Source: Sulfuriflexus mobilis (GTDB taxonomy: Bacteria > Pseudomonadota > Gammaproteobacteria > AKS1). From it: a stretch of DNA of 64,000 nucleotides. Shown one piece after another: positions 7,130-43,954 of this stretch; within the stretch, counting starts at the first letter, position 1; each line of letters opens with the position of its first letter. The stretch covers positions 2,786,001-2,850,000 of the forward strand of contig NZ_AP018725.1 of the NCBI RefSeq assembly GCF_003967195.1, given 5' to 3'. The notes beneath the pieces are model-generated. The model saw nothing but the letters and a program-made list of their open reading frames with translations, had not been told where the DNA came from and searched no databases. The position numbers were made by a program, and so were the translations under genes.

Positions 7130-7981
7130 TTGAATATACCCAAGCCTCTGTTTATTACCCTGCTGGTGTTACTGAATGCCGTACCGGTCTATGGCGTGTT
7201 CCAGTGGGGCTGGAAGAGTTTTGACCTGATCTTTCTTTACTGGCTTGAGAATCTCATTATCGGCGTGTTTATGATCCTTCGTATAGTGGCACGCCGCTAT
7301 AGCCACCCCATTGAGTTGGCCTTGCCGCTTTTTTTAGCGCCCTTCTTTACCCTGCATTACGGCTTGTTCTCTTATGGCCACGGCACATTTATTATCAACC
7401 TGTTTGGTAAGGGACTGGAAGGTGAACTCGCTGGAATGCACATTCCGGAAATTATACTGCCGCTTATTGAAAGTCGTCATTTATTCTGGCCAGTGCTGGC
7501 ATTGTTTGCCTACCAACTCATTGACTGGATAAGGGATACCAGTGAGCGGGGGTTTGGCAGTGATGGCATTAAGGATCTAACGACCGCACCGTATCGACGT
7601 ATTCTGGTGCTGCATATCACCATCCTCGCATCGGGCTTTGCACTAGGTGCAATGGATGAGCCTTTAACAGGGTTACTTCTTCTCATTATTTTTAAGACGG
7701 GCATGGATATCTATCATTGGGACAAAGACGAGAAGGCCGCAGCACCCAAAGATATACAGCCGGTAATGAATGAAAAGATTAAAAAAAGGATCGATGCCTT
7801 TCTGGATAAGCCGACGATTACGGTTAATGGCGAGGAGATTCGTTACAACAACTTCGACGAGATGAAAGCATCAAAGCACTACAATTTAATGCGCTCCATC
7901 GTGCGCATGGTCGGTGGCGGCAAACACATGCAAGACATTGAGGCATATATAGAACAACAAGCCAAGCAACGTGATATATAG
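7130..7981 (+). CDS. Membrane protein of the DUF6498 type
   Basis: 283 residues with about six transmembrane segments in the first 205 residues (for example LFITLLVLLNAVPVYGV, LENLIIGVFMILRI and LLLLIIFKTGMDIYHW) and a polar C-terminal tail of about 70 residues. The motif YWLENLIIGVF resembles the WENL(I/V)IG signature of DUF6498 membrane proteins, whose function is not known to me. A TTG start at 7130 is used because GAGG lies seven bases before it and the nearby ATG at 7117 is out of frame. It may share a transcript with the small XRE gene, which ends 73 bases upstream. Confidence 0.75.
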   Translation: MNIPKPLFITLLVLLNAVPVYGVFQWGWKSFDLIFLYWLENLIIGVFMILRIVARRYSHPIELALPLFLAPFFTLHYGLFSYGHGTFIINLFGKGLEGELAGMHIPEIILPLIESRHLFWPVLALFAYQLIDWIRDTSERGFGSDGIKDLTTAPYRRILVLHITILASGFALGAMDEPLTGLLLLIIFKTGMDIYHWDKDEKAAAPKDIQPVMNEKIKKRIDAFLDKPTITVNGEEIRYNNFDEMKASKHYNLMRSIVRMVGGGKHMQDIEAYIEQQAKQRDI

Positions 7982-8034
7982 AAAAAATAGAAAGGGATAA
8001 AAAAACCCTGTTTCCCGAACACCAAATATCGAAT

Positions 8035-8394
8035 CTATTTACGGCAGTTTTTTATTGTTACCGTGTGATCGATCTTATTGGTGAGCTCATCGAGATCAGG
8101 GCAAAATTGCGGGCTGAATGTGCAGCCAGTGGTTTGGTTAAGCTGTTGCTTAATGCGTTCGAGAATGTGCTTGGCCTGTTCATTGTAGGCCACATATTCC
8201 ATTGCGGATGCGATCTTTGCCTTGACGAGGCCATGCTTGGCGACATTAGTCGCCGGATGGGTGATAAGTTTTTTCCTGTCCGCGGAGTTTTTCAGTATGT
8301 CACCGCGCCCTTTAATTCCCCCACCTTGACCACACTCATTCCCAAATGGAATAAATATTATACATAAATGCCCTATTATAATATTAATCAGCAT
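8035..8394 (-). CDS. Hypothetical small protein with hydrophobic N-terminus
   Basis: 119 residues, not recognised. A hydrophobic N-terminal stretch (MLINIIIGHLCIIFIPFG) could be a signal or anchor. The rest is soluble, with a predicted helix in ASAMEYVAYNEQAKHILERI and four spread cysteines. It is convergent with the DUF6498 gene. The ribosome site is unclear, so the true start could be downstream. A real but unknown gene is likely because the second half looks protein-like. Confidence 0.45.
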   Translation of the reverse strand: MLINIIIGHLCIIFIPFGNECGQGGGIKGRGDILKNSADRKKLITHPATNVAKHGLVKAKIASAMEYVAYNEQAKHILERIKQQLNQTTGCTFSPQFCPDLDELTNKIDHTVTIKNCRK

Positions 8395-9136: not shown

Positions 9137-10891
9137 ATGTTCAGAATTCGTAAAGTTCTCGATAACACCTCCAGCGCTAACCGCGAGGCTATAAGTCAGG
9201 TCCTGCCTATTCTTGCCGAGCAATTCCCGGCCGCTCGCAAGGAAGAATTTAAAAAACTCCCGGAACAGCTGCACGACCCACTAAAATATGAATATCGTTC
9301 AATCCTGTTCGTTGCAGAAAACGGTGTTGGTAAGGTCAAGGGCTTTGCCATGTTGCTACATTTGCCGGATATCGGCATTGCCTATCTTGAACTGATTTCA
9401 GCCGCCCCGGGGCGAACCGGGGGCGGCATTGGCAGCACGCTATATGAATATGTGCGCGAGGAATGTCAGCTACTGAAGGTAAAAGGCTTATTCTTTGAGT
9501 GCGCCATCGACGACCCGGAGAAGATTAAAGACCCTGCCATATTGAAACAAAACATAGCTCGCTTAAAGTTTTATGAGCGCTACGGTGTCTACCCGATCAT
9601 TAACAATATTTATCCGTCCCCCGTGAACCCTGGCGATCAGGATTTATATTACCTGATGATGGACGACCTTGGAACCAGAAGAAAAATAAACTCCGCCCTT
9701 GCACAGAAGATTATCCGCGCCATTTTAGAACGCAAATACGGTGATGTACTATCACGATCGCAAATCGATGATGTCGTGCTTTCATTTACTGATGACACAC
9801 TGCGTTTCCGCGAGCCACGCTATGTATACAAACCTGTCGCCATTAACCGAAGCCACAAGGACAAGGAATTCATTGCGCTGGTCGTAAATGAAGGCCATAG
9901 CATTCATCACGTAAAAGACCGTGGTTATGTCGAGGCCCCGGTACGCCTGTCGACCATCCTTACCGCGCTCGATAAAACCCAATTATTTAAGCGTGTTGAA
10001 CCCAAGCGAGTCAGCGAGAAGTTGATTAAAAAGGTTCACCTGCCTGCCTATGTAGATTACCTACGTCGTGCCTGTGCCCAAATGGCTCCAGGCAAATCTA
10101 TGTACCCGCTTATCTTCCCGTTGCGTAATTTATCACGCCCGCCAAAAGATATTGAATTGCAGGTGGGTTACTATTGTCTGGATACTTTCACACCGTTAAA
10201 CAGCAATGCCTATCTGGCTGCTCGTGGCGCAGTAGATTGTGCCGTTACCGCTGCTAATGCGGTATTAGATGGCGCTCACATCGCCTACGCACTGGTGCGT
10301 CCGCCGGGCCATCACGCTGAGCGTCGTGCCTTTGGCGGGTTTTGTTATTTTAATTCCGCGGCTATCGCGGCCCATCATCTCAGCGACTATGGCAAAGTTG
10401 CTATACTCGATATCGACTTTCATCATGGTAATGGTACGCAGGACATCTTCTATGAACGCAATGATGTGCTCACGGTGTCAATACATGGTGACCCGCACTT
10501 CGCATATCCGCACTTTGCTGGTTTTAAAGACGAAATTGGCAATAAAGATGGTGAAGGCTTTAACATTAACTTTCCATTACCGGAACATATTACTGCAGAG
10601 AAATATCGCCGTACGCTGTCTACTGCCTTAAAACGTATTAAAGTCTTTAACCCTGCCTACCTGGTGGTCTGTTTGGGACTGGACACCGCCAAATCGGACC
10701 CGACCGGGACCTGGGATCATACATTTGAAGACTTTTTTAAAATCGGTCAATTAATCGGAGCACCCAAGTACCACACCGTTGTAGTGCAAGAAGGCGGTTA
10801 CCGCACACAAACCCTGGGCACCAATGCCAAACATTTTTTTCAGGGATTATGGGCAGGATTCTTTGGGCAGGATAAGGCCAAAAAAAAGTAA
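9137..10891 (+). CDS. Fusion of a GNAT acetyltransferase and a histone-deacetylase-family amidohydrolase
   Basis: 584 residues. Residues 1 to about 185 look like a GNAT N-acetyltransferase (LELISAAPGRTGGGIGSTLY is the acetyl-CoA loop). Residues about 250-575 are an HDAC/AcuC/acetylpolyamine-amidohydrolase domain: RPPGHHAE (about 388), the zinc ligands in DIDFHHGNG (about 425) and GLDTAKSDPTG (about 515), and a C-terminal EGGY tyrosine. All catalytic residues are present. The GLDxxxxDP form is closest to acetylpolyamine amidohydrolases. One protein would thus both add and remove acetyl groups, perhaps on polyamines or lysines. It stands alone, with no polyamine genes next to it. Confidence 0.9.
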   Translation: MFRIRKVLDNTSSANREAISQVLPILAEQFPAARKEEFKKLPEQLHDPLKYEYRSILFVAENGVGKVKGFAMLLHLPDIGIAYLELISAAPGRTGGGIGSTLYEYVREECQLLKVKGLFFECAIDDPEKIKDPAILKQNIARLKFYERYGVYPIINNIYPSPVNPGDQDLYYLMMDDLGTRRKINSALAQKIIRAILERKYGDVLSRSQIDDVVLSFTDDTLRFREPRYVYKPVAINRSHKDKEFIALVVNEGHSIHHVKDRGYVEAPVRLSTILTALDKTQLFKRVEPKRVSEKLIKKVHLPAYVDYLRRACAQMAPGKSMYPLIFPLRNLSRPPKDIELQVGYYCLDTFTPLNSNAYLAARGAVDCAVTAANAVLDGAHIAYALVRPPGHHAERRAFGGFCYFNSAAIAAHHLSDYGKVAILDIDFHHGNGTQDIFYERNDVLTVSIHGDPHFAYPHFAGFKDEIGNKDGEGFNINFPLPEHITAEKYRRTLSTALKRIKVFNPAYLVVCLGLDTAKSDPTGTWDHTFEDFFKIGQLIGAPKYHTVVVQEGGYRTQTLGTNAKHFFQGLWAGFFGQDKAKKK

Positions 10892-13836: not shown

Positions 13837-15567
13837 ATGCGAATTCAGATTATAAAAGTTTATCTCCTTTTGCTTTGCAGTTCTTTATTAATCTCCTGCA
13901 ATAATCCACCGACAGAAATCACAATTGGTTGTGATGTACAGGAATTAATCACTGCTATTAACACAGCTAATAATACGGCCGGTAATTATCATATTCATCT
14001 GGCACCAGGTTGCACTTATAGCTTCACTTCAAAAGATAACAGTAATGGTGGACATGGTGCCAATGCACTTCCCCTCATTACTAGCACCATTTTCATAGAA
14101 GGTCATCAGGCACGCCTCGAGCGTTCTCAGTCGGCATCGCAGCAATTCCGCCTTTTCTTCATCTCGACTAATGGCAATCTCCGTTTAGACGATCTAAGCA
14201 TCGCTAATTTCTATAGCATTGGCATTCCTGACGAGATCGATCGTGGTGGCGGTGCAATCTATAATGATGGCGACTTGCTCACTGTTAACGCTGTTATCTT
14301 CGAAGGCAACCACAATGTTGCAAATGGCGGCGCCATCTTTAACAAAGGCACTTTGATTATCCGTAATAATAGTGTGTTTAATGGCAATAACGCGAATATT
14401 GGCGGAGCGCTATACAACACAAACATAACAAACATCGCTACATATATCGAAGATAGCCGCTTTGAAAACAATATTGCCCAAACTGGCGGTGCAATATACA
14501 ACACCGGCGGTGATTCGGACTTATCAATCAACACAAGTGAATTTACCGACAATGTTGCATTCGACGATGGCGGCGCCATTTATACTTCACATGGTGAAGT
14601 ATTGATTTACTCTAGTACTTTTTCTGACAACCGCGCTATTCATGCGGCCAATCCAGGCAGTCGTGGCGGCGCCATTTTTTGTGGAGATTGCACACTCTCC
14701 CTGCAACAAAGCACTTTCAAGCTCAACCGCGCCGATGGCGAAGGTGGCGCAATATATAACCATGACGGTGATTTACGTTCTATACAAAAAACCACCTTTG
14801 ACAACAACCTTTCTGATAGAGATGGTGCTGGCTTGTATAATCTTTCTGGCACCTTCACCATGAAGGAAGTTTCCTTCGTGTTTAATAACGCTGACCCCTT
14901 TCAGGCCAGTGGCGGCGCAATCTACAATGGCGGAACCGGAACTATCGAGAAAGCTTATCTGGCTGCGAACGTCGCCGAGCATGGTGGGGCCATATACAAC
15001 AACGGCTCAATGAGCGTGCTTAACAGTACTTTTAGTGTAAACAGTGCCCGCGAAGATGGTGGCCATATCTACAATGGGCAACAATTTGATATCAGTTTTA
15101 GTACATTAGCTGAATCCCAGGCTTATCATGGGCGAGCTATATTCAATGCTGGTAGCAGTTTACGCATCAAAAGTTCAATTCTTTATAATACCACCGTCCA
15201 CCAAAACTGCACCGATCAATCCGGTACACTGCAAGCACTCGGGGTGAATCTCGATAATGTTGGAGATTGCCCTGGCTTTAGTATCGTCGCTGATCCCACT
15301 CTCGATGCAGTGAAGAACAATGGCGGTTATGCGCCAACCTATGGCCTGCTTTCCGGCAGCCCTGCCATCGGCGCGACAAATGATTGCACCGACCATAACG
15401 GCATAACTGTCAACCAGGATCAACGCAACGTCGCTCGACCACAACCACCGTCCACTGGTTGGTGTGATCTCGGTGCTTACGAGGGTGAAGTTATTCCTGC
15501 AGCGCCTCCCGCACCACCTCTTTCCAAGAATACGTCTAACCAGAGTATCGAACATGAAAACCTATAA
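13837..15567 (+). CDS. Beta-helix lipoprotein with choice-of-anchor Q domain
   Basis: 576 residues from ATG 13837 (AGGGAA upstream; a TTG two codons earlier is less likely). Seen: a lipoprotein signal ending LLISC near residue 23, then about ten repeats centred on GGAIYN, spaced roughly 25-35 residues, as in right-handed parallel beta-helix proteins such as chlamydial polymorphic outer-membrane proteins. The C-terminus (NNGGYAPTYGLLSGSPAI and DQR, then WCDLGAYE) is the choice-of-anchor Q signature. It is probably displayed on the outer membrane; adhesion or surface binding is plausible. It overlaps the next gene by 14 bases. Confidence 0.88.
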   Translation: MRIQIIKVYLLLLCSSLLISCNNPPTEITIGCDVQELITAINTANNTAGNYHIHLAPGCTYSFTSKDNSNGGHGANALPLITSTIFIEGHQARLERSQSASQQFRLFFISTNGNLRLDDLSIANFYSIGIPDEIDRGGGAIYNDGDLLTVNAVIFEGNHNVANGGAIFNKGTLIIRNNSVFNGNNANIGGALYNTNITNIATYIEDSRFENNIAQTGGAIYNTGGDSDLSINTSEFTDNVAFDDGGAIYTSHGEVLIYSSTFSDNRAIHAANPGSRGGAIFCGDCTLSLQQSTFKLNRADGEGGAIYNHDGDLRSIQKTTFDNNLSDRDGAGLYNLSGTFTMKEVSFVFNNADPFQASGGAIYNGGTGTIEKAYLAANVAEHGGAIYNNGSMSVLNSTFSVNSAREDGGHIYNGQQFDISFSTLAESQAYHGRAIFNAGSSLRIKSSILYNTTVHQNCTDQSGTLQALGVNLDNVGDCPGFSIVADPTLDAVKNNGGYAPTYGLLSGSPAIGATNDCTDHNGITVNQDQRNVARPQPPSTGWCDLGAYEGEVIPAAPPAPPLSKNTSNQSIEHENL

Positions 15568-34870: not shown

Positions 34871-35749
34871 TTAATACTGGCAAGTGGTAATTATTTCTTC
34901 TTCAAACTTCAGGCATTCATTTTCAACAATAGCTCTAACTACATGTATATCCATTGCTTCGGTGCCAAAGTTTTTATAATACAGAAACATATTTGTATCG
35001 TTGAGAGTATTGACGCTTGATAGCGATCCATTCTTATATTGAGTGAATGTGTGTTTATGATACAGGTCGGTTGATCTCATTATTGACAATTGATGAGTAT
35101 GGCCACTGAAAACGTGTTCTATATGATTCTCTCTTACGAACTCGACAACGGTTCTGGAATTGAAAAGAGGGTCTGAATCAGTATCCAGGATAGAATGATG
35201 ATTTAGAAGCATTATTCTATCGTAACTATCTTTATTAATTGCATGAGAAAGTGTTCTCAACATTTCTTGATCCACAAAACCGTTGTCTTCATAGAGTGAA
35301 CAGGTATCGAGGCATACTATCAGGACTGACTCACCATTGACCGTGATGTTTTTAATAAAATTGATGTCAGTAAAATCTTCCTTTATGCCATTGGTATTTC
35401 CATCAAGAAAAATATTATTCTTTCTACAATTGTCACGATTTAATGGGCGAATGACTTCTATGTCGTCGATATACTGTCGAAAATAGTCAGCACAGCGCAT
35501 ATTTCGTTTGTCATGATTTCCGGGAATAGAAACGACGTGTTGGCAATCAATTGACTTCAAAAAATTCCCTGCGGCTTCAAATTCATTTTCGAGAGCATCC
35601 GTTGTATTATCGCCTGTGTTGATTACAATGTCGGCCTCATAGCTGTTCAATTTCTCCAACAACAATTCACTTTTTCCGAGCCAGTGACGAGGGCCAAAAT
35701 GCATATCTGAGATGTGTAGTAGATTCATTTTCGTTTCGAGTATATCCAT
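34871..35749 (-). CDS. Calcineurin-like metallophosphoesterase
   Basis: About 292 residues from ATG 35749 (GGGA just upstream); ATG 35728 (MNLLHISDMHFG) is equally possible. Seen: the five metallophosphoesterase blocks in order: ISDMHFG, NTGDNTTD, SIPGNHDKR, LLNHHS and FSGHTH, which bind two metal ions. The family covers cyclic-nucleotide, protein and nucleic-acid phosphoesterases; this one is closest in outline to CpdA/Icc-type enzymes. No signal peptide, so it is cytoplasmic. It stands alone and is AT-rich. Confidence 0.88.
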   Translation of the reverse strand: MDILETKMNLLHISDMHFGPRHWLGKSELLLEKLNSYEADIVINTGDNTTDALENEFEAAGNFLKSIDCQHVVSIPGNHDKRNMRCADYFRQYIDDIEVIRPLNRDNCRKNNIFLDGNTNGIKEDFTDINFIKNITVNGESVLIVCLDTCSLYEDNGFVDQEMLRTLSHAINKDSYDRIMLLNHHSILDTDSDPLFNSRTVVEFVRENHIEHVFSGHTHQLSIMRSTDLYHKHTFTQYKNGSLSSVNTLNDTNMFLYYKNFGTEAMDIHVVRAIVENECLKFEEEIITTCQY

Positions 35750-36264
35750 TTCCCTAAGCAGGTGAATTGTGCCCAATAAACAACATTTAGGCTTATGATC
35801 TTTGGATCTGGTATCAACGTGCACACAGTCCCGACCAATAGACACAGAGTATGCAGATAATGTGACAATAGCGTGTTCAACAATGGAATAAAAGGATCAG
35901 TACCTTTTAATAATATCGCAAAAAGCGCTTCTAACTGGCAAGAAACCATTGGCTATACAAGACGATACAAATAAAAAATTAAACAGCTGTGCGCCTGACT
36001 AAATAGAGCGTATAATTACACTGTTAATATTTCTCTGTATCGAGCCTACTGGCCAACATGCCTCTATCCTCCTTATTGCGACCCTGTTTGCTTGCAAGCG
36101 AATAGAGCCTATTCATAGCACCCCCTGTTTGCGCTTCTCAAGCTTAATGAGAACGACCAAATTTTAGCGTAAGTCTGTTCATTTGAGCAGCGAGGTGCGC
36201 GCGTTATATCTCCAGCGTGATACAGGTGCGTCCTTGATTTGTATTTATGCCTTTTAGGAGCGCC
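35750..36264. other. Intergenic region, little visible
   Basis: About 515 bases between divergent genes. A short AAAAGGATCAGTACCTTTTAAT unit occurs near 35890. The final part carries AGGAG for the next gene. No gene, RNA or strong promoter is recognised. Confidence 0.4.
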
Positions 36265-37433: not shown

Positions 37434-37889
37434 CGGCCTAATTAACAGGAATTAAGTTGACGCAGGGCTCAACGGGTCAGAGGGCTAAAGAGGTAATCCA
37501 TTTAATGCTAGTGGGAAGTAAGATTAAAGGGTACTGACCCCTTTTATTATTGCTACGGCTGCTCATTTTTTAATCCCTCCGTCCCCTTTTATTAGTCCGA
37601 TTTAAAGGGGTCGGAGTGACTTAGAATCCCTTCGGGCTTCATCAAGTATTTCCTGAACTCGCTTTGCTTGTTCTGGTCATTTAATTTTGACCACTAGCAC
37701 CCCTTGCTTTCGGGCGACCCCTTTGTTTTTTTCCCAGATTAAAGGGGTCAGACCCCTTTAATTTCGAGTCTGACCCTATTTATCACTGTTACGGCTTAAT
37801 TATTGAGGCATCATACTAATGTAAATGAGAATCATTTGTCACTGACCCCTTTTATTTCTGAAAAGGCAAAAGACAAGACCTGACCCCGT

Positions 37890-38028
37890 TATTTCTCCCG
37901 TTATTTCTCCAAATATTTTGTATTTCTCCCGTTATTTCTCCAAATATTTTGTATTTCTCCCGTTATTTCTCCAAATATTTTGTAATTAGGACCCCGTTAT
38001 TTCTCCCGTTATTTCTCCAAATATTTTG
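37890..38028. repeat. 31-base tandem repeat
   Basis: Three consecutive copies of TATTTCTCCCGTTATTTCTC-CAAATATTTTG (37890-37982), then a 15-base break and a fourth copy. Copies are identical, so the expansion is recent. The unit itself contains TATTTCTCC twice. Confidence 0.85.
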
Positions 38029-38210
38029 TAATTAGAACAGAAAGGCAAAAAGCAAGACCTGACCCCGTTGTTCTTTCGTTGTTCTTTTAGAGAAAACTGT
38101 GCTCTGACCCCACTTATTGCATTGATTCTAAGCGTGAGTTTTTTCAAGTACTCTGACCCCTTGATTGAAAGGCAAAAAGCAAGACCTGACCCCGTTGTTC
38201 CACTCGTCCA

Positions 38211-38429
38211 GATGGCACCGCGTTTTCGCCCCATGTGATCTTCACCTGCAAGAACTGGTCGAGCAACGAAGAAGGTGCCGCGGCGGTCGGGCATCATGAT
38301 AAAACCGGCCCGACAGAGGATAATTGGGCAAAATCCTGGAACTTCTCACATTTCAGCAGGGGCTGTAGCCAGAAGGCGCTCGAAAGCACGGGCGGCGCCG
38401 GGTTGATATATTGTTTTGCTATTGATTGA
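38211..38429 (+). pseudogene. C-terminal remnant of a secreted DUF1554-like domain
   Basis: A start-less frame reading DGTAFSPHVIFTCKNWSS, then GHHDKTGPTEDNWAKSW, RGCSQKALEST and GLIYCFAID before a TGA at 38429. The W-C-NW pattern and the final LIYCF resemble the end of DUF1554/lectin-like secreted domains. Upstream it is cut by an AAGACCTGACCCCGTT repeat unit. It is inferred to be a gene whose front was lost. Confidence 0.45.
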
Positions 38430-38456
38430 AAAACAGGGGCAGATCGCGATTCAGTT

Positions 38457-38529
38457 AAAGGGGACGGAGGGATTATTTTTTGACCAATTAGTATAACTGT
38501 TCATTTTTTAATCCCTCCGTCCCCTTTTA
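38457..38529. repeat. Inverted repeat of the GGGGACGGAGGGATTA type
   Basis: Arms AAAGGGGACGGAGGGATTAT and TTAATCCCTCCGTCCCCTTT around TTTTTTGACCAATTAGTATAA. It is nearly identical to the copy at 29849-29920. It lies 65 bases downstream of the nuclease-STAND gene. Confidence 0.75.
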
Positions 38530-38594
38530 TTTTTATTCGTTGGCAAATGAGAATGAGATGTATTTGTCACCGACCCCTTTTATTGTTTTGCAAC

Positions 38595-41500
38595 TTATAA
38601 TACCCGTTCCATGAATTCTCCAATTTCCCGCCTCAAAGCTTTCGCGGCGGGAACAAGTAAGCTCTTCAGTGTGCCGCCACCTTTCTCAACTTCATCCACC
38701 CCACTCAGCAGTGCGGGTACTGATGTTCTGGGAGAATAAAAATTAGAGCCGCTCTCCGCATAAATACGCCAGGAATCTGATAAACAATGGGCAACATGGT
38801 GGTTGAATAACTGCTGCAGCAAAAAACTTCCATCAGAGACCATCCCTGAAACCAAAAACGCCTGCAGCTCTAGCGCTTGCTCAGGTTTCAACTCATCCGA
38901 CAACAATTGCACCGCAGCACCACAGCGTTTACACCGATCTGCACTCGCATCATACAGAATCTCAGGCTGCGAATAACCCTCACTGAATAACCTGATATTG
39001 TTCGTTAGGTCGGCGCCATCACCAAGGAGTCGCCTGCTATCCTCCGCCCATATACCCAGCTTTGCTTGTACGTCTAGACCAGCACATACCAATCCAGCGC
39101 ACAACAATCCAAACCAATAGTCTGGCTCTACTAGCGGCCCAGACTCTGGACCATTATCAGGCTCCAGAAATAAATGACTGGAATCTTCTTGTATGAGGCG
39201 TTGAGCTTGTACATAGCTCAATATAGCCTCTACAAAACCCTCTCCGGCGCCAAGAGCGAAAGACAAAGCAAGTTGCGCTTCTGCCGAAACCCAGCGAACG
39301 GCGCGGTACCTAGACCCTTTAAGCCTGTCCAATTCTGCCTTGTACTTTGCTGCCTCAGGCGCCATGGTGGACAAAACGAGAATAACTTGTGCGCAAATAA
39401 ATTCACGACGCGCTTCCAGTCCATCTTCCACGCTAAGGACTTTTAAGTCTGGCGAGCTTGCATAACCAACCTCTATAAAAGCATCATCTTTGCCTCTCTT
39501 CCAAATGCTATTCTCAATTGCTTTGCATACATCAACAGCAACACGGTGTACCGCATCCCACCGCTCAACCTCCTGACTGAAGACTTCATCAGGCAAGAAC
39601 AAAACTGTTTCTGCTAGCAACTTTGCGGCAGAAACGCTATCTCCCTCTTTAAGCATGGAATGGGCGGCATCCACTCTCAGCCCGAACTTGGTAAACTCAT
39701 AAGTACCTGGCTGAATCGAGTCAGCCCCAGCGGAAAATATCTGTCTTGCTTCACCCCACAGGCCTAATCGCGCGGCGCTCATTGCTGCCCGCCGAAACGC
39801 AAATGGGTCAAGTGTTTCTTTGGTGTCAGGGTTGTTGAATAATTCACGCCAAATCTCAAGCACAGACTTATCATCTTCGACGTGAAATAAAACATTGGCC
39901 CGCTGCTCCATAAGCACAGCCGACGACCCATACTCTTCTTCAGCCTCTTTGAGCGCCACAAGCGCGGCATCGCTTTGCTCAAGATACTCCGTCAGAATTA
40001 TGGCCCTTGATTTTGCTACCTCCCTCCCCAGATTGCAGGAAGACTCACCTCTTGAATAATCGTCTAGACGGTCAAGCACTTCAAGCCAAGGCTCCCAGTC
40101 GCTTGTTTCCTCGTGAGTTGCCACCCACGCTGTTTGAACGAATGCACCAACATTCTGCACAAGAGGCCATTCCAGCATCTGATCGAACTGCTGTTTAATT
40201 TCAGTGGTTGCCTCACTTTTTAACCAGTGCAGCAACTCATTAAGACTTTCCATGCCTGTTACAGAATGAATTGCACCAATCAATCCAACTTGTGCCGTCG
40301 TTCCGCTTTTGGGCAGTCCATCTAAGTCAGTGACGCCGAAAAAACCTTTACCAATATCCGGAAGAATATCTGACAATTCATCGGGTAATTTAGAAGGCGA
40401 TCTCAATAACCCGCTTATGGCGTCCAAGCGCATTTTGAGCGGTATTTTTGAATTATCCTTCGCAATCACAGACATCCACATCAACACCTCGTTAACCATC
40501 CTTGCCTCGGGTTTTGATATTTTTTCAACATCTTCCTTCCAGCGAGCGCACACTTGCGGAATACTGTCTGCATCCAAAGTGCATGCCACACTAAATTGCA
40601 GGCTTCTAATAATCACATTAGCTATTTCAGTGCTTGCAAACGTTTCGCCAGCGTCAATTGCGACAAAAGGCAGCCATAAAAGGTGACGCTCAACTTCATT
40701 TACGGCATCATTTTCTTCTGATGTTTGTAATTTTATTGCCGTATTCGCAACCAGTGATGGCTCTCCACCCATATATGCATGAAAAAATAGCGCCGCAACT
40801 TCGGATGGGTCAAGCGTGTGTTTTGATAGCAATGCACTATAGATATCAATATGAGCTTTCTTCCTCCTCTCTTCAGTCCAAACATCAGCCGAGACCCCTT
40901 TCAACAAGGCCGTCACCCGGTACCACTCAGATTCTATGCACTCAATCCATTTGCCAGCCAATCCATCAATAACATCGCCGCCGTTTGCTATCTTGCTTAT
41001 TCCCTCAGCCAGTTTGAGCGCAACCTTTCTATGCATAAGCACCGAGCTTTCTGATAACAAATAAATAAACTCCGCAACCGGCTCTGTCACAGTATCCCTG
41101 AGTAATTGCCTTGCTAACTGCCGCACTGAAGTTACAGCCGTTGACTGGGCGGTTATACTGTCTACGCTCGGCGCAGGCCATCCTTCCGAGGAAAGTTCAC
41201 TCAATCTGACTTGAACAAGTTTCGGATGCCCCCCGGTCGAAGCCGTTACAAGAGCACTCCACTTATGCGCAAATTTCACTGGGCAGCCTTGCTGGATACA
41301 CAATGCTTTCACCTCTTCTGCATCCATCTCCGGCACATAAAAAAGCTCAATATTACTGAAGTCATGAATTGCCGCTGAATCGCTTGACGCCCCTTGCGCA
41401 GTAAGGATAATGCCGCGCCCAGTTATGTTGGCCCTATGCAATATGAGCTCAAGCGAATCTTTGTATGCACGATGTGCGACAGGACTCAAATCCAAGTCAT

Positions 41501-42650
41501 CAATAACAATCAAGCTAGAGCAGGCGTCTTCATCAATTCTTCGCGCAATCGCCATAAACAGGCTGTCTACCTCGCTTGGTTTTCGCCCGCTTAAAGCAAT
41601 CCACCACGCATCCGGACATAGGACTGAAGATACCAGCTGCGCTAACGTGGTCTTGCCCTTGTACACAGTCCCCGTAAGAAGCACTACTTTACGAAGATTA
41701 ATTAGCTCTTGTAGCTGGTTAGTCAGGACAGGTCTTAACAAAAGGGGTTCGGGTAACTTGGGGAGCTTGTCGACCAACAACTCAAGAAGCGCTTCGCCTG
41801 AGGCGCCGCCAGCGATAACGTCCGCCACCTTTTCAGCAGGAACAGGCAAGTACACTGTAGTTGCCTCTTCAATCTGACGCAGCGCATCCCCAAAAGTCAG
41901 GTATCTTTTGCTGGAATCCCTCTCCCGAATAACCTGCCAGAACCTTGATTCCAAATACTTCTTAACACTCTGGACGAGGCTTAACGGTCGACTACGAGAA
42001 CTTAGAATCACAGCGATGCGGTCATCCACACTCCTGATAACCGCATCAGTGTCTGGCTGCTCTGTGAACCAGAAAAACCTCCGTATAAGCTGCTCCTGTA
42101 TAGCTTCGGGTTTCTCGGTAGCCAAAAAAGTTTTGAGCGGACTACCCTCTTTGAGCTTTGTTGAGAGATAGTTGGCTATTTTGGTTGTTATATCGAGGCT
42201 TGTTTGTGCCGCTCTCCACAAATCAATACCCTTGCCGCCGTTAAAATTTCCGTCCTTCTCAGCAGCAACCGAACTGGTTGTCAGGAATTGGAACGATACC
42301 CGGCGAGTAGGTTCTTTGCTTGCTAGGGACCAGTAATTCTCCAGCGCCTCAAGAGCTTTAGCATTCCCAAGGGAGATTGAGCCTTTGTGTCTTTTTACCT
42401 GTACTGCCTTTGCTGAGCCAGTACTGACAACGTCAAAATCTTCCGCCCCCTCCAGATAAATAACCTCTTCTCCATCCCTCAGCCTGAGCCAAGCGTCGAT
42501 TGACCACCAAGCCTGATAAATTATCCCGTCTATGGAGTCGACAGCCTGTCGACGAGAGTCGCCAGTCAGCTCACGAAGAGGATTGGCGTCCTCTATCTGA
42601 GAATTTGCAGATTTTATATCTACGTCAGGTGGAGGGTTATCATTATTCAT
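38595..42650 (-). CDS. Cap4-like nuclease + STAND NTPase + helical-repeat protein (Avs-type defence candidate)
   Basis: 1351 residues. N-terminus (about 30-200): GIIYQAWWSIDAWLRLRDG, then EGAEDFDVV (Glu 67/Asp 73) and AVQVKRHKG (Gln 84, Lys 86), the E-D-QxK core of Cap4/DUF4297-type PD-(D/E)xK nucleases. Residues about 300-520: STAND-like ATPase with Walker A GTVYKGKTT (327-335) and Walker B LIVIDDLDL (around 384). The remaining about 800 residues are helical TPR-like repeats, with a CKRCG pair near 1235. Avs anti-phage proteins have this architecture: the C-terminal part senses a phage protein, the ATPase oligomerises and the nuclease cuts DNA. No adjacent accessory gene. The ribosome site before ATG 42650 is weak. 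Confidence 0.82.
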   Translation of the reverse strand: MNNDNPPPDVDIKSANSQIEDANPLRELTGDSRRQAVDSIDGIIYQAWWSIDAWLRLRDGEEVIYLEGAEDFDVVSTGSAKAVQVKRHKGSISLGNAKALEALENYWSLASKEPTRRVSFQFLTTSSVAAEKDGNFNGGKGIDLWRAAQTSLDITTKIANYLSTKLKEGSPLKTFLATEKPEAIQEQLIRRFFWFTEQPDTDAVIRSVDDRIAVILSSRSRPLSLVQSVKKYLESRFWQVIRERDSSKRYLTFGDALRQIEEATTVYLPVPAEKVADVIAGGASGEALLELLVDKLPKLPEPLLLRPVLTNQLQELINLRKVVLLTGTVYKGKTTLAQLVSSVLCPDAWWIALSGRKPSEVDSLFMAIARRIDEDACSSLIVIDDLDLSPVAHRAYKDSLELILHRANITGRGIILTAQGASSDSAAIHDFSNIELFYVPEMDAEEVKALCIQQGCPVKFAHKWSALVTASTGGHPKLVQVRLSELSSEGWPAPSVDSITAQSTAVTSVRQLARQLLRDTVTEPVAEFIYLLSESSVLMHRKVALKLAEGISKIANGGDVIDGLAGKWIECIESEWYRVTALLKGVSADVWTEERRKKAHIDIYSALLSKHTLDPSEVAALFFHAYMGGEPSLVANTAIKLQTSEENDAVNEVERHLLWLPFVAIDAGETFASTEIANVIIRSLQFSVACTLDADSIPQVCARWKEDVEKISKPEARMVNEVLMWMSVIAKDNSKIPLKMRLDAISGLLRSPSKLPDELSDILPDIGKGFFGVTDLDGLPKSGTTAQVGLIGAIHSVTGMESLNELLHWLKSEATTEIKQQFDQMLEWPLVQNVGAFVQTAWVATHEETSDWEPWLEVLDRLDDYSRGESSCNLGREVAKSRAIILTEYLEQSDAALVALKEAEEEYGSSAVLMEQRANVLFHVEDDKSVLEIWRELFNNPDTKETLDPFAFRRAAMSAARLGLWGEARQIFSAGADSIQPGTYEFTKFGLRVDAAHSMLKEGDSVSAAKLLAETVLFLPDEVFSQEVERWDAVHRVAVDVCKAIENSIWKRGKDDAFIEVGYASSPDLKVLSVEDGLEARREFICAQVILVLSTMAPEAAKYKAELDRLKGSRYRAVRWVSAEAQLALSFALGAGEGFVEAILSYVQAQRLIQEDSSHLFLEPDNGPESGPLVEPDYWFGLLCAGLVCAGLDVQAKLGIWAEDSRRLLGDGADLTNNIRLFSEGYSQPEILYDASADRCKRCGAAVQLLSDELKPEQALELQAFLVSGMVSDGSFLLQQLFNHHVAHCLSDSWRIYAESGSNFYSPRTSVPALLSGVDEVEKGGGTLKSLLVPAAKALRREIGEFMERVL

Positions 42651-42958: not shown

Positions 42959-43414
42959 TTATGCTGCTTTATTTGGTCGCCATTTTGAATGGCTCTTTTG
43001 AAATGTGCGTTTTTTGGCTGCTTCTTTACGATCCAAATTATTAAGTCTATCGACCAATTCAATAATAGTTTCATTTCCACCATGCACTTCTAGATATACC
43101 TTACGAACAAAACGATCAGCCCATTGAGGAACAATCCCTTTACGCTCCCATAGAGATAATGTTTGCTCTTTTGTGCCCATTAATTCAGCTAACCGTTTTT
43201 GGGACATATCTATTTCTTTACGCAAGAATCTAAATTCTGTACCTGTAAGTTTAGGTTTATAATGAATCAAATCACATGCGATCGCATGATGCAGATCTAA
43301 CAGGTTCTCTATAGCTACAGTTTCACCATACGGAGTTTTACGTATCTTAAAACCATTTTTAAGGTAAATATTTCGTAAGCCACACTCCCGATAATGCAAA
43401 GGTTTTGCACTCAT
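42959..43414 (-). CDS. MqsA-like HTH antitoxin/regulator
   Basis: 151 residues. Seen: a divergent N-terminal segment with two cysteines, then RFLRKEIDMSQKRLAELMGT and EQTLSLWERKGIVPQ, the XRE helix-turn-helix of MqsA/HigA-type antitoxins, with a helical tail. The gene follows a DUF4258-domain gene by 76 bases on the same strand, the common order for these pairs. Role: probably represses the pair and neutralises its partner. Unlike MqsA, there is no full zinc-binding CxxC set at the N-terminus. Confidence 0.8.
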   Translation of the reverse strand: MSAKPLHYRECGLRNIYLKNGFKIRKTPYGETVAIENLLDLHHAIACDLIHYKPKLTGTEFRFLRKEIDMSQKRLAELMGTKEQTLSLWERKGIVPQWADRFVRKVYLEVHGGNETIIELVDRLNNLDRKEAAKKRTFQKSHSKWRPNKAA

Positions 43415-43490: not shown

Positions 43491-43808
43491 CTATTCCATA
43501 GCGGTCACTATGATAATAGGTGTTGAATCTTCATTTCTTTCTATAGCTACCACTACATTGACATTGTCACCAGCTGTAAATTGCTCAAGCCTACACTTCC
43601 AGTGACCAGTCTTTATATCTTCGTATGGCCCTTCAAGTATTCCACCGGTCTTAAGAACACGTAGCACTTGTGTCATCGACACTTTACGCTGCCGCATTCT
43701 TTTTTTTGCGTGACTCGACCACTCAACACGATCTGTTTCCTGTGCAGCAGTTCGAATGAGTTGCAATGCTCTACGCTGGGTCATTCCAAATTTTACGACC
43801 TTTCTCAC
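43491..43808 (-). CDS. DUF4258 domain protein, probable toxin partner
   Basis: About 105 residues. A GTG start at 43808 is used, with GAGGG six bases before it; ATG 43784 is a shorter choice. Seen: SSHAKKRMRQRKVSMTQVLR, then TGGILEGPYEDIKTGHWKCR and a strand-rich end (VNVVVAIERNEDSTPIIIV), the DUF4258 pattern. DUF4258 proteins are often encoded with an MqsA-like HTH partner and resemble small RelE/MqsR-type toxins. Activity on RNA is inferred. It is separated from thiC by a terminator. Confidence 0.78.
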   Translation of the reverse strand: MRKVVKFGMTQRRALQLIRTAAQETDRVEWSSHAKKRMRQRKVSMTQVLRVLKTGGILEGPYEDIKTGHWKCRLEQFTAGDNVNVVVAIERNEDSTPIIIVTAME

Positions 43809-43954
43809 CAAACCCTCGCACCCATAATTATTATTGGTTACCTGTAAATACTATAGGTTTATGAGCATTTGTCAAACCTACTTTCTCATGTTCTATAATT
43901 CTGTATAAATAAGCTTAATTCATTAATTTCAGTTGGTTACACCTAGCTAAACCA

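Follow-up and report, generated by a model that had tools for sequence, protein, structure and literature searches.

A 1351-residue nuclease–STAND-like–TPR protein of Sulfuriflexus mobilis: a rare and undescribed family of probable bacterial immune proteins of a known type

The locus and its surroundings

Within the window, i.e., the whole 64,000-nucleotide stretch of Sulfuriflexus mobilis DNA that was analysed (NZ_AP018725.1, positions 2,786,001 to 2,850,000), the minus strand carries a single gene for a protein in which a nuclease domain, a STAND-like ATPase and a long helical-repeat region are joined (Table 1). The reading frame is unbroken, with neither stops nor frameshifts, and its ATG start is plausible since conservation begins near residue 32.

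Table 1. Features of the nuclease–STAND–TPR gene and of the gene pair upstream of it
Feature	Coordinates	Strand	Basis
Whole gene, 1351-aa nuclease–STAND–TPR protein	38595..42650	−	Open frame; length and domain order matched by homologues
LmuA/DUF4297 (Cap4-type) PD-(D/E)xK nuclease domain, residues 32–260	41871..42557	−	PADLOC models; PDB DUF4297 chains
Predicted catalytic core D71…Q84-x-K86, residues 71–86, with E67 just ahead	42393..42440	−	Conservation; alignment to DUF4297–HerA
AAA+/STAND-type P-loop NTPase, residues ~300–500	41151..41753	−	Family profile; Foldseek/VIA; Pfam-type matches of homologues
Walker A GTVYKGKTT, residues 327–335	41646..41672	−	Sequence and homologue conservation
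Walker B IVIDDLDL, residues 381–388	41487..41510	−	Sequence and homologue conservation
TGGHPKLV, STAND-type GxP motif, residues 472–479	41214..41237	−	Conservation in 11 homologues
Helical linker GKWIE…YRVTALL, possibly winged-helix-like, residues 501–640	40731..41150	−	Conservation; low-confidence model
Helical repeat (TPR-like) putative sensor, residues 641–1351	38598..40730	−	All-helical model; TPR folds; TPR matches of homologues
HTH (Xre/MqsA-like) antitoxin- or repressor-like gene	42959..43414	−	HTH_3 1.3e-5; TIGR03830 1.6e-7
DUF4258 toxin-like gene	43491..43811	−	PF14076 5e-15

A sequence-only reading of this DNA had placed the gene between a repeat-packed gap and a toxin–antitoxin-like pair, as in defence islands. 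Both flanks are present: positions 37434–38594 are full of repeats, and the HTH/DUF4258 pair sits on the opposite side, directly after thiC. The comparison with a defence island did not hold, since most of the surrounding genes have metabolic roles or none that is recognised, and they form no dense island of that kind. On one side lie thiC and core genes, and on the other are cytochrome, HDAC-like, CDP-alcohol and cytidylyltransferase (CTP_transf) genes together with unknowns. Elsewhere in the window, 34871–35845 encodes a calcineurin-like metallophosphoesterase with matches to PDC-S10 (3e-10) and DS9_1 (4e-11), perhaps via a common domain only, and 9137–10888 encodes a fusion of a GNAT acetyltransferase with a histone-deacetylase-like domain.

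Since the gene has a low GC3 (0.46, as against 0.81 for thiC), is missing from three genomes of the same genus, and lies at a break in synteny at thiC, we regard it as accessory. In one congener, thiC and its preceding gene are present at 74.6% DNA identity, and the similarity ends exactly at the end of thiC; in congener G132, a short ParE-like ORF likewise directly follows thiC.

The repeats that pack the gap are part of a REP-like family spread across the accessory region. These short palindromic repeats (AAAGGGGTCAGA/CTGACCCC) occur in 28–29 copies in the window, where 1–2 would be expected, and span positions 14890–42818, being densest at 37521–38597. They are mostly intergenic and occupy a low-GC accessory stretch on both sides of the gene. 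With one mismatch allowed, AAAGGGGTCAGA matched the genome 53 times, and 22 of these matches fell in the 14890–42818 stretch. One genome match lies ~14 bp from a match to a Y1 (RAYT-like) transposase at 1.375 Mb, which suggests that the family consists of REP elements.

The HTH/DUF4258 pair lies directly upstream of the gene on the same strand, and the three could conceivably form one operon in which the HTH protein represses the gene or the pair safeguards it as an addiction module. However, a 308-bp gap containing one copy of the repeat family separates the pair from the gene, promoter and terminator signals were no higher than chance, and none of the homologues examined had the pair next to it; we therefore consider a common operon distinctly unlikely.

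Domains of the protein

Residues 32–260 matched the PADLOC model for LmuA (PDLC03848; E 2.9e-13 over 229 residues) and that for DUF4297 (E 2.3e-8), and thus the Cap4/DUF4297-type nuclease proposed from sequence was borne out by profile search. The NCBIfam model for the DUF4297 anti-phage protein was also matched (E 5.8e-7), at a score far under the model's full-length cut-off. When a profile built from 12 related nuclease domains was compared with the PDB, it retrieved the DUF4297 chains 8xav (2e-7), 8ziq (4e-6) and 9c1m (5e-4), and no chains beyond DUF4297 nucleases were found in that search. In the alignment to 8xav, the segment IECIEDVDV…AIQCK puts D40, Q53 and K55 opposite D71, Q84 and K86, respectively; D40, Q53 and K55 are the residues mutated in a study of DUF4297–HerA (PMC11291478). 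The catalytic core had earlier been assigned to E67, D73 and Q84/K86. Of this assignment, the nuclease and Q84/K86 stand, but the catalytic aspartate is D71 rather than D73 according to the structure-anchored alignment, and position 73 varies among homologues, in contrast to the invariant E67 and D71. The predicted active site is D71–Q84–K86, a PD-(D/E)xK core of the form D…QxK. Its aspartate is present in all 12 homologous nuclease domains and its glutamine in all but one, while the third position is occupied by K or R, with R in 4 of the 12 domains, including that of the Dyella homologue.

The Walker A and Walker B motifs are both intact, as originally noted, and two acidic residues are present in the latter. 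Among 11 homologues, G332, K333 and D385 never change, and conservation of D384 is at least 90%. Downstream of the ATPase core lies GGHP (residues 473–476), which we take to be the GxP motif of STAND proteins; in the same homologues G474 is invariant, and H475, P476 and L478 are each conserved in at least 90%. The protein by itself gave best Pfam STAND/AAA matches at E 0.16–0.23, i.e., below significance, while several homologues had matches, in a range of about 1e-5 to 1e-2, to AAA, AAA_16 and nSTAND5 (the last at 1e-4). A profile of the family also matched AAA+ proteins. The best STAND match, to nSTAND3, was weak (E 0.23 for the protein itself and 0.004 at best among homologues). Comparison by hhalign of the ATPase profile with two STAND-like proteins gave E-values of 6e-4 (a repeat protein, over 182 columns) and 8e-3, and an hhalign comparison with Dsr2 showed no relation. 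The low-confidence model of the domain resembles AAA+ folds (Z about 11 over roughly 180–210 residues, rmsd 4–6 Å); its Foldseek list contained NLRP7 and Apaf-1 among many AAA+ proteins, and its VIA list contained AAA+ chains. Taken together, the ATPase is likely, rather than proven, to be of STAND type. Following it, the helical linker carries five residues (G558, G566, W568, R578, and L582) that are invariant in the homologue alignment.

Both structure models were built from two-sequence alignments (this protein and that of Dyella) and had a poor overall pLDDT of 44–46, and hence only their better stretches and secondary structure were used. The long repeat-rich C-terminus recognised from sequence was confirmed by structure prediction, in which the ~710 residues from about 640 to 1351 are all-helical and TPR-like. 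The best-modelled stretch of repeats (residues 849–979; pLDDT 70–86) lies in a region that resembles TPR solenoids. Homologues matched TPR_12, TPR_16 and TPR_19, and a comparison of the C-terminal profile with the PDB returned nothing beyond weak TPR matches. The fold lists contained no Avs chains, an absence that carries no weight as evidence. Mean pairwise identity peaks in the first 150 residues and in residues 451–600 and is lowest in the repeat half, except for residues 901–975, as expected for an effector and switch as opposed to a sensor.

Homologues and distribution of the family

About a dozen homologues with the same domain order and 19–42% identity were found; they come from Dyella and from plasmids of alpha- and betaproteobacteria. 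They include a chromosomal homologue in Dyella tabacisoli (41% identity) and, since plasmids were the collection searched, plasmid homologues from Janthinobacterium, Bradyrhizobium, Sphingopyxis, Rhizobium, Agrobacterium, Paraburkholderia, Caulobacter and Ciceribacter. Because the entire layout is conserved in these proteins, the combination of nuclease, STAND-like ATPase and helical repeats first read from the sequence is supported and goes beyond chance. The family is rare: among genomes of the class it was found in one of 369, the genome under study, and among those of the phylum in two of 398, one of them holding a C-terminal remnant, so that the whole gene was present in its own genome alone. 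That remnant, which derives from the repeat half and is spread over two reading frames, lies in genome G733 (L016, around 7497–8257). At a strict cut-off, a profile of the ATPase alone gave no matches in the 398 genomes, which says little on frequency, and phage records and viral contigs yielded no homologue. The family is nonetheless coherent, its length and domain order being kept in Dyella, Janthinobacterium, Bradyrhizobium, Agrobacterium, and others, and current defence catalogues see it by its nuclease end alone.

Two plasmid loci depart from the single-gene form. In Rhizobium leguminosarum (L006, 5974–10013), the nuclease–ATPase and the repeat sensor are encoded by two genes that overlap by 4 bp, the second of which aligns with the repeat half (E 4e-24); this natural split falls between effector–switch and sensor and could be exploited for domain swaps and in a search for the trigger. 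In Burkholderia contaminans (L012, 5983–7827), the nuclease domain is fused to a different, unrecognised partner of ~400 aa.

Some homologues adjoin known defence genes, namely Dsr2 (6e-142), QatA (6e-144) and an AbiLi/AriA-like ATPase, and a PDC-S60-like phosphoesterase accompanied by a GASH-type gene is also among their neighbours. The Dsr2 case is that of Dyella, in which the homologue (L001, 12166–16005) is followed by a full-length Dsr2-like gene. These neighbours, together with the patchy distribution of the family, count against a role outside immunity. On such a reading, the protein would be a MalT-like STAND regulator or a housekeeping ATPase whose nuclease is a dead remnant; STAND proteins regulate transcription too, and in 4 of the 12 homologous domains R replaces K at the third catalytic position. 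However, K is present at this position here, the aspartate and glutamine are retained as described above, and no DNA-binding output domain was found in the protein. We consider a role outside immunity extremely doubtful.

Proposed function and comparison with known systems

Since one polypeptide unites a domain for cutting DNA, a switch driven by ATP and a long helical region suited to sensing, its most likely task is to recognise phage infection and then destroy the DNA of the cell, and we think it probable that the protein is by itself an anti-phage system of the Avs-like (bacterial NLR-like) kind. With Avs analogues as the model (PMC12931631; PMC11291478), the C-terminal helical repeats would keep the protein off until they bind a molecule of the invader, probably a conserved phage protein. 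Ligand binding would then allow the STAND-type ATPase to bind ATP and oligomerise, and the oligomer would bring the N-terminal DUF4297/LmuA-type nucleases together. The nucleases may then cut the double-stranded DNA of both phage and host, resulting in death of the infected cell and hence abortive infection.

The same machine could have another trigger, sensing invading, plasmid or damaged DNA (cf. Lamassu and Hachiman) and acting on mobile elements generally. For the nuclease, the nearest matches are LmuA and HerA-associated DUF4297, which belong to systems that sense or process DNA, and homologues are often plasmid-borne, though plasmids made up the collection searched. However, no SMC (LmuB), helicase or HerA partner adjoins the gene, and the sensor half is a TPR-like solenoid, usually a protein-binding structure, which makes DNA sensing unlikely. 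Within the favoured reading, i.e., detection of a phage, it is a tentative possibility that the protein represents a separate lineage of bacterial NLR-like receptors (LmuA-type nuclease, nSTAND, TPR) that senses a phage feature unseen by Avs1–5. If its trigger were new, it would widen what bacterial NLR-like proteins recognise.

Among known systems, Avs1–4 (AVAST) likewise combine an N-terminal nuclease, a central STAND ATPase and a long C-terminal repeat sensor in one protein, and they recognise a phage terminase, portal or other conserved phage protein. PADLOC includes AVAST models, and no Avs model was among the PADLOC matches of the gene at E <= 1. Avs3 also has a Cap4-type nuclease (PMC11291478). 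Avs5 shares a STAND ATPase with TPR/Sel1 repeats (PMC12931631), but its effector is a Sir2 NADase whereas the protein described here has a nuclease. LmuA of Lamassu, the best PADLOC match, shares the N-terminal Cap4/DUF4297-type nuclease; however, Lamassu has an LmuB SMC partner, whereas here the nuclease is fused to a STAND–TPR module and no LmuB is adjacent (the neighbours being HTH, DUF4258, CTP_transf, and others). HerA–DUF4297 has the nuclease family and the D/Q/K active site in common, but its HerA translocase is a separate protein, while here the ATPase is fused and STAND-like, and no HerA helicase occurs among the neighbours. With Cap4 of CBASS the protein has the nuclease superfamily in common, and one homologue matches PF14130 (E 0.002); there was no SAVED match in the gene and no CD-NTase among its neighbours. 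Since either no model matched or a partner that the system requires was absent, we do not assign the protein to Avs1–5, Lamassu, HerA–DUF4297 or CBASS. Instead, it belongs to a rare, undescribed family inside a known type of bacterial immune protein, and by analogy it would work like an Avs, or bacterial NLR, protein.
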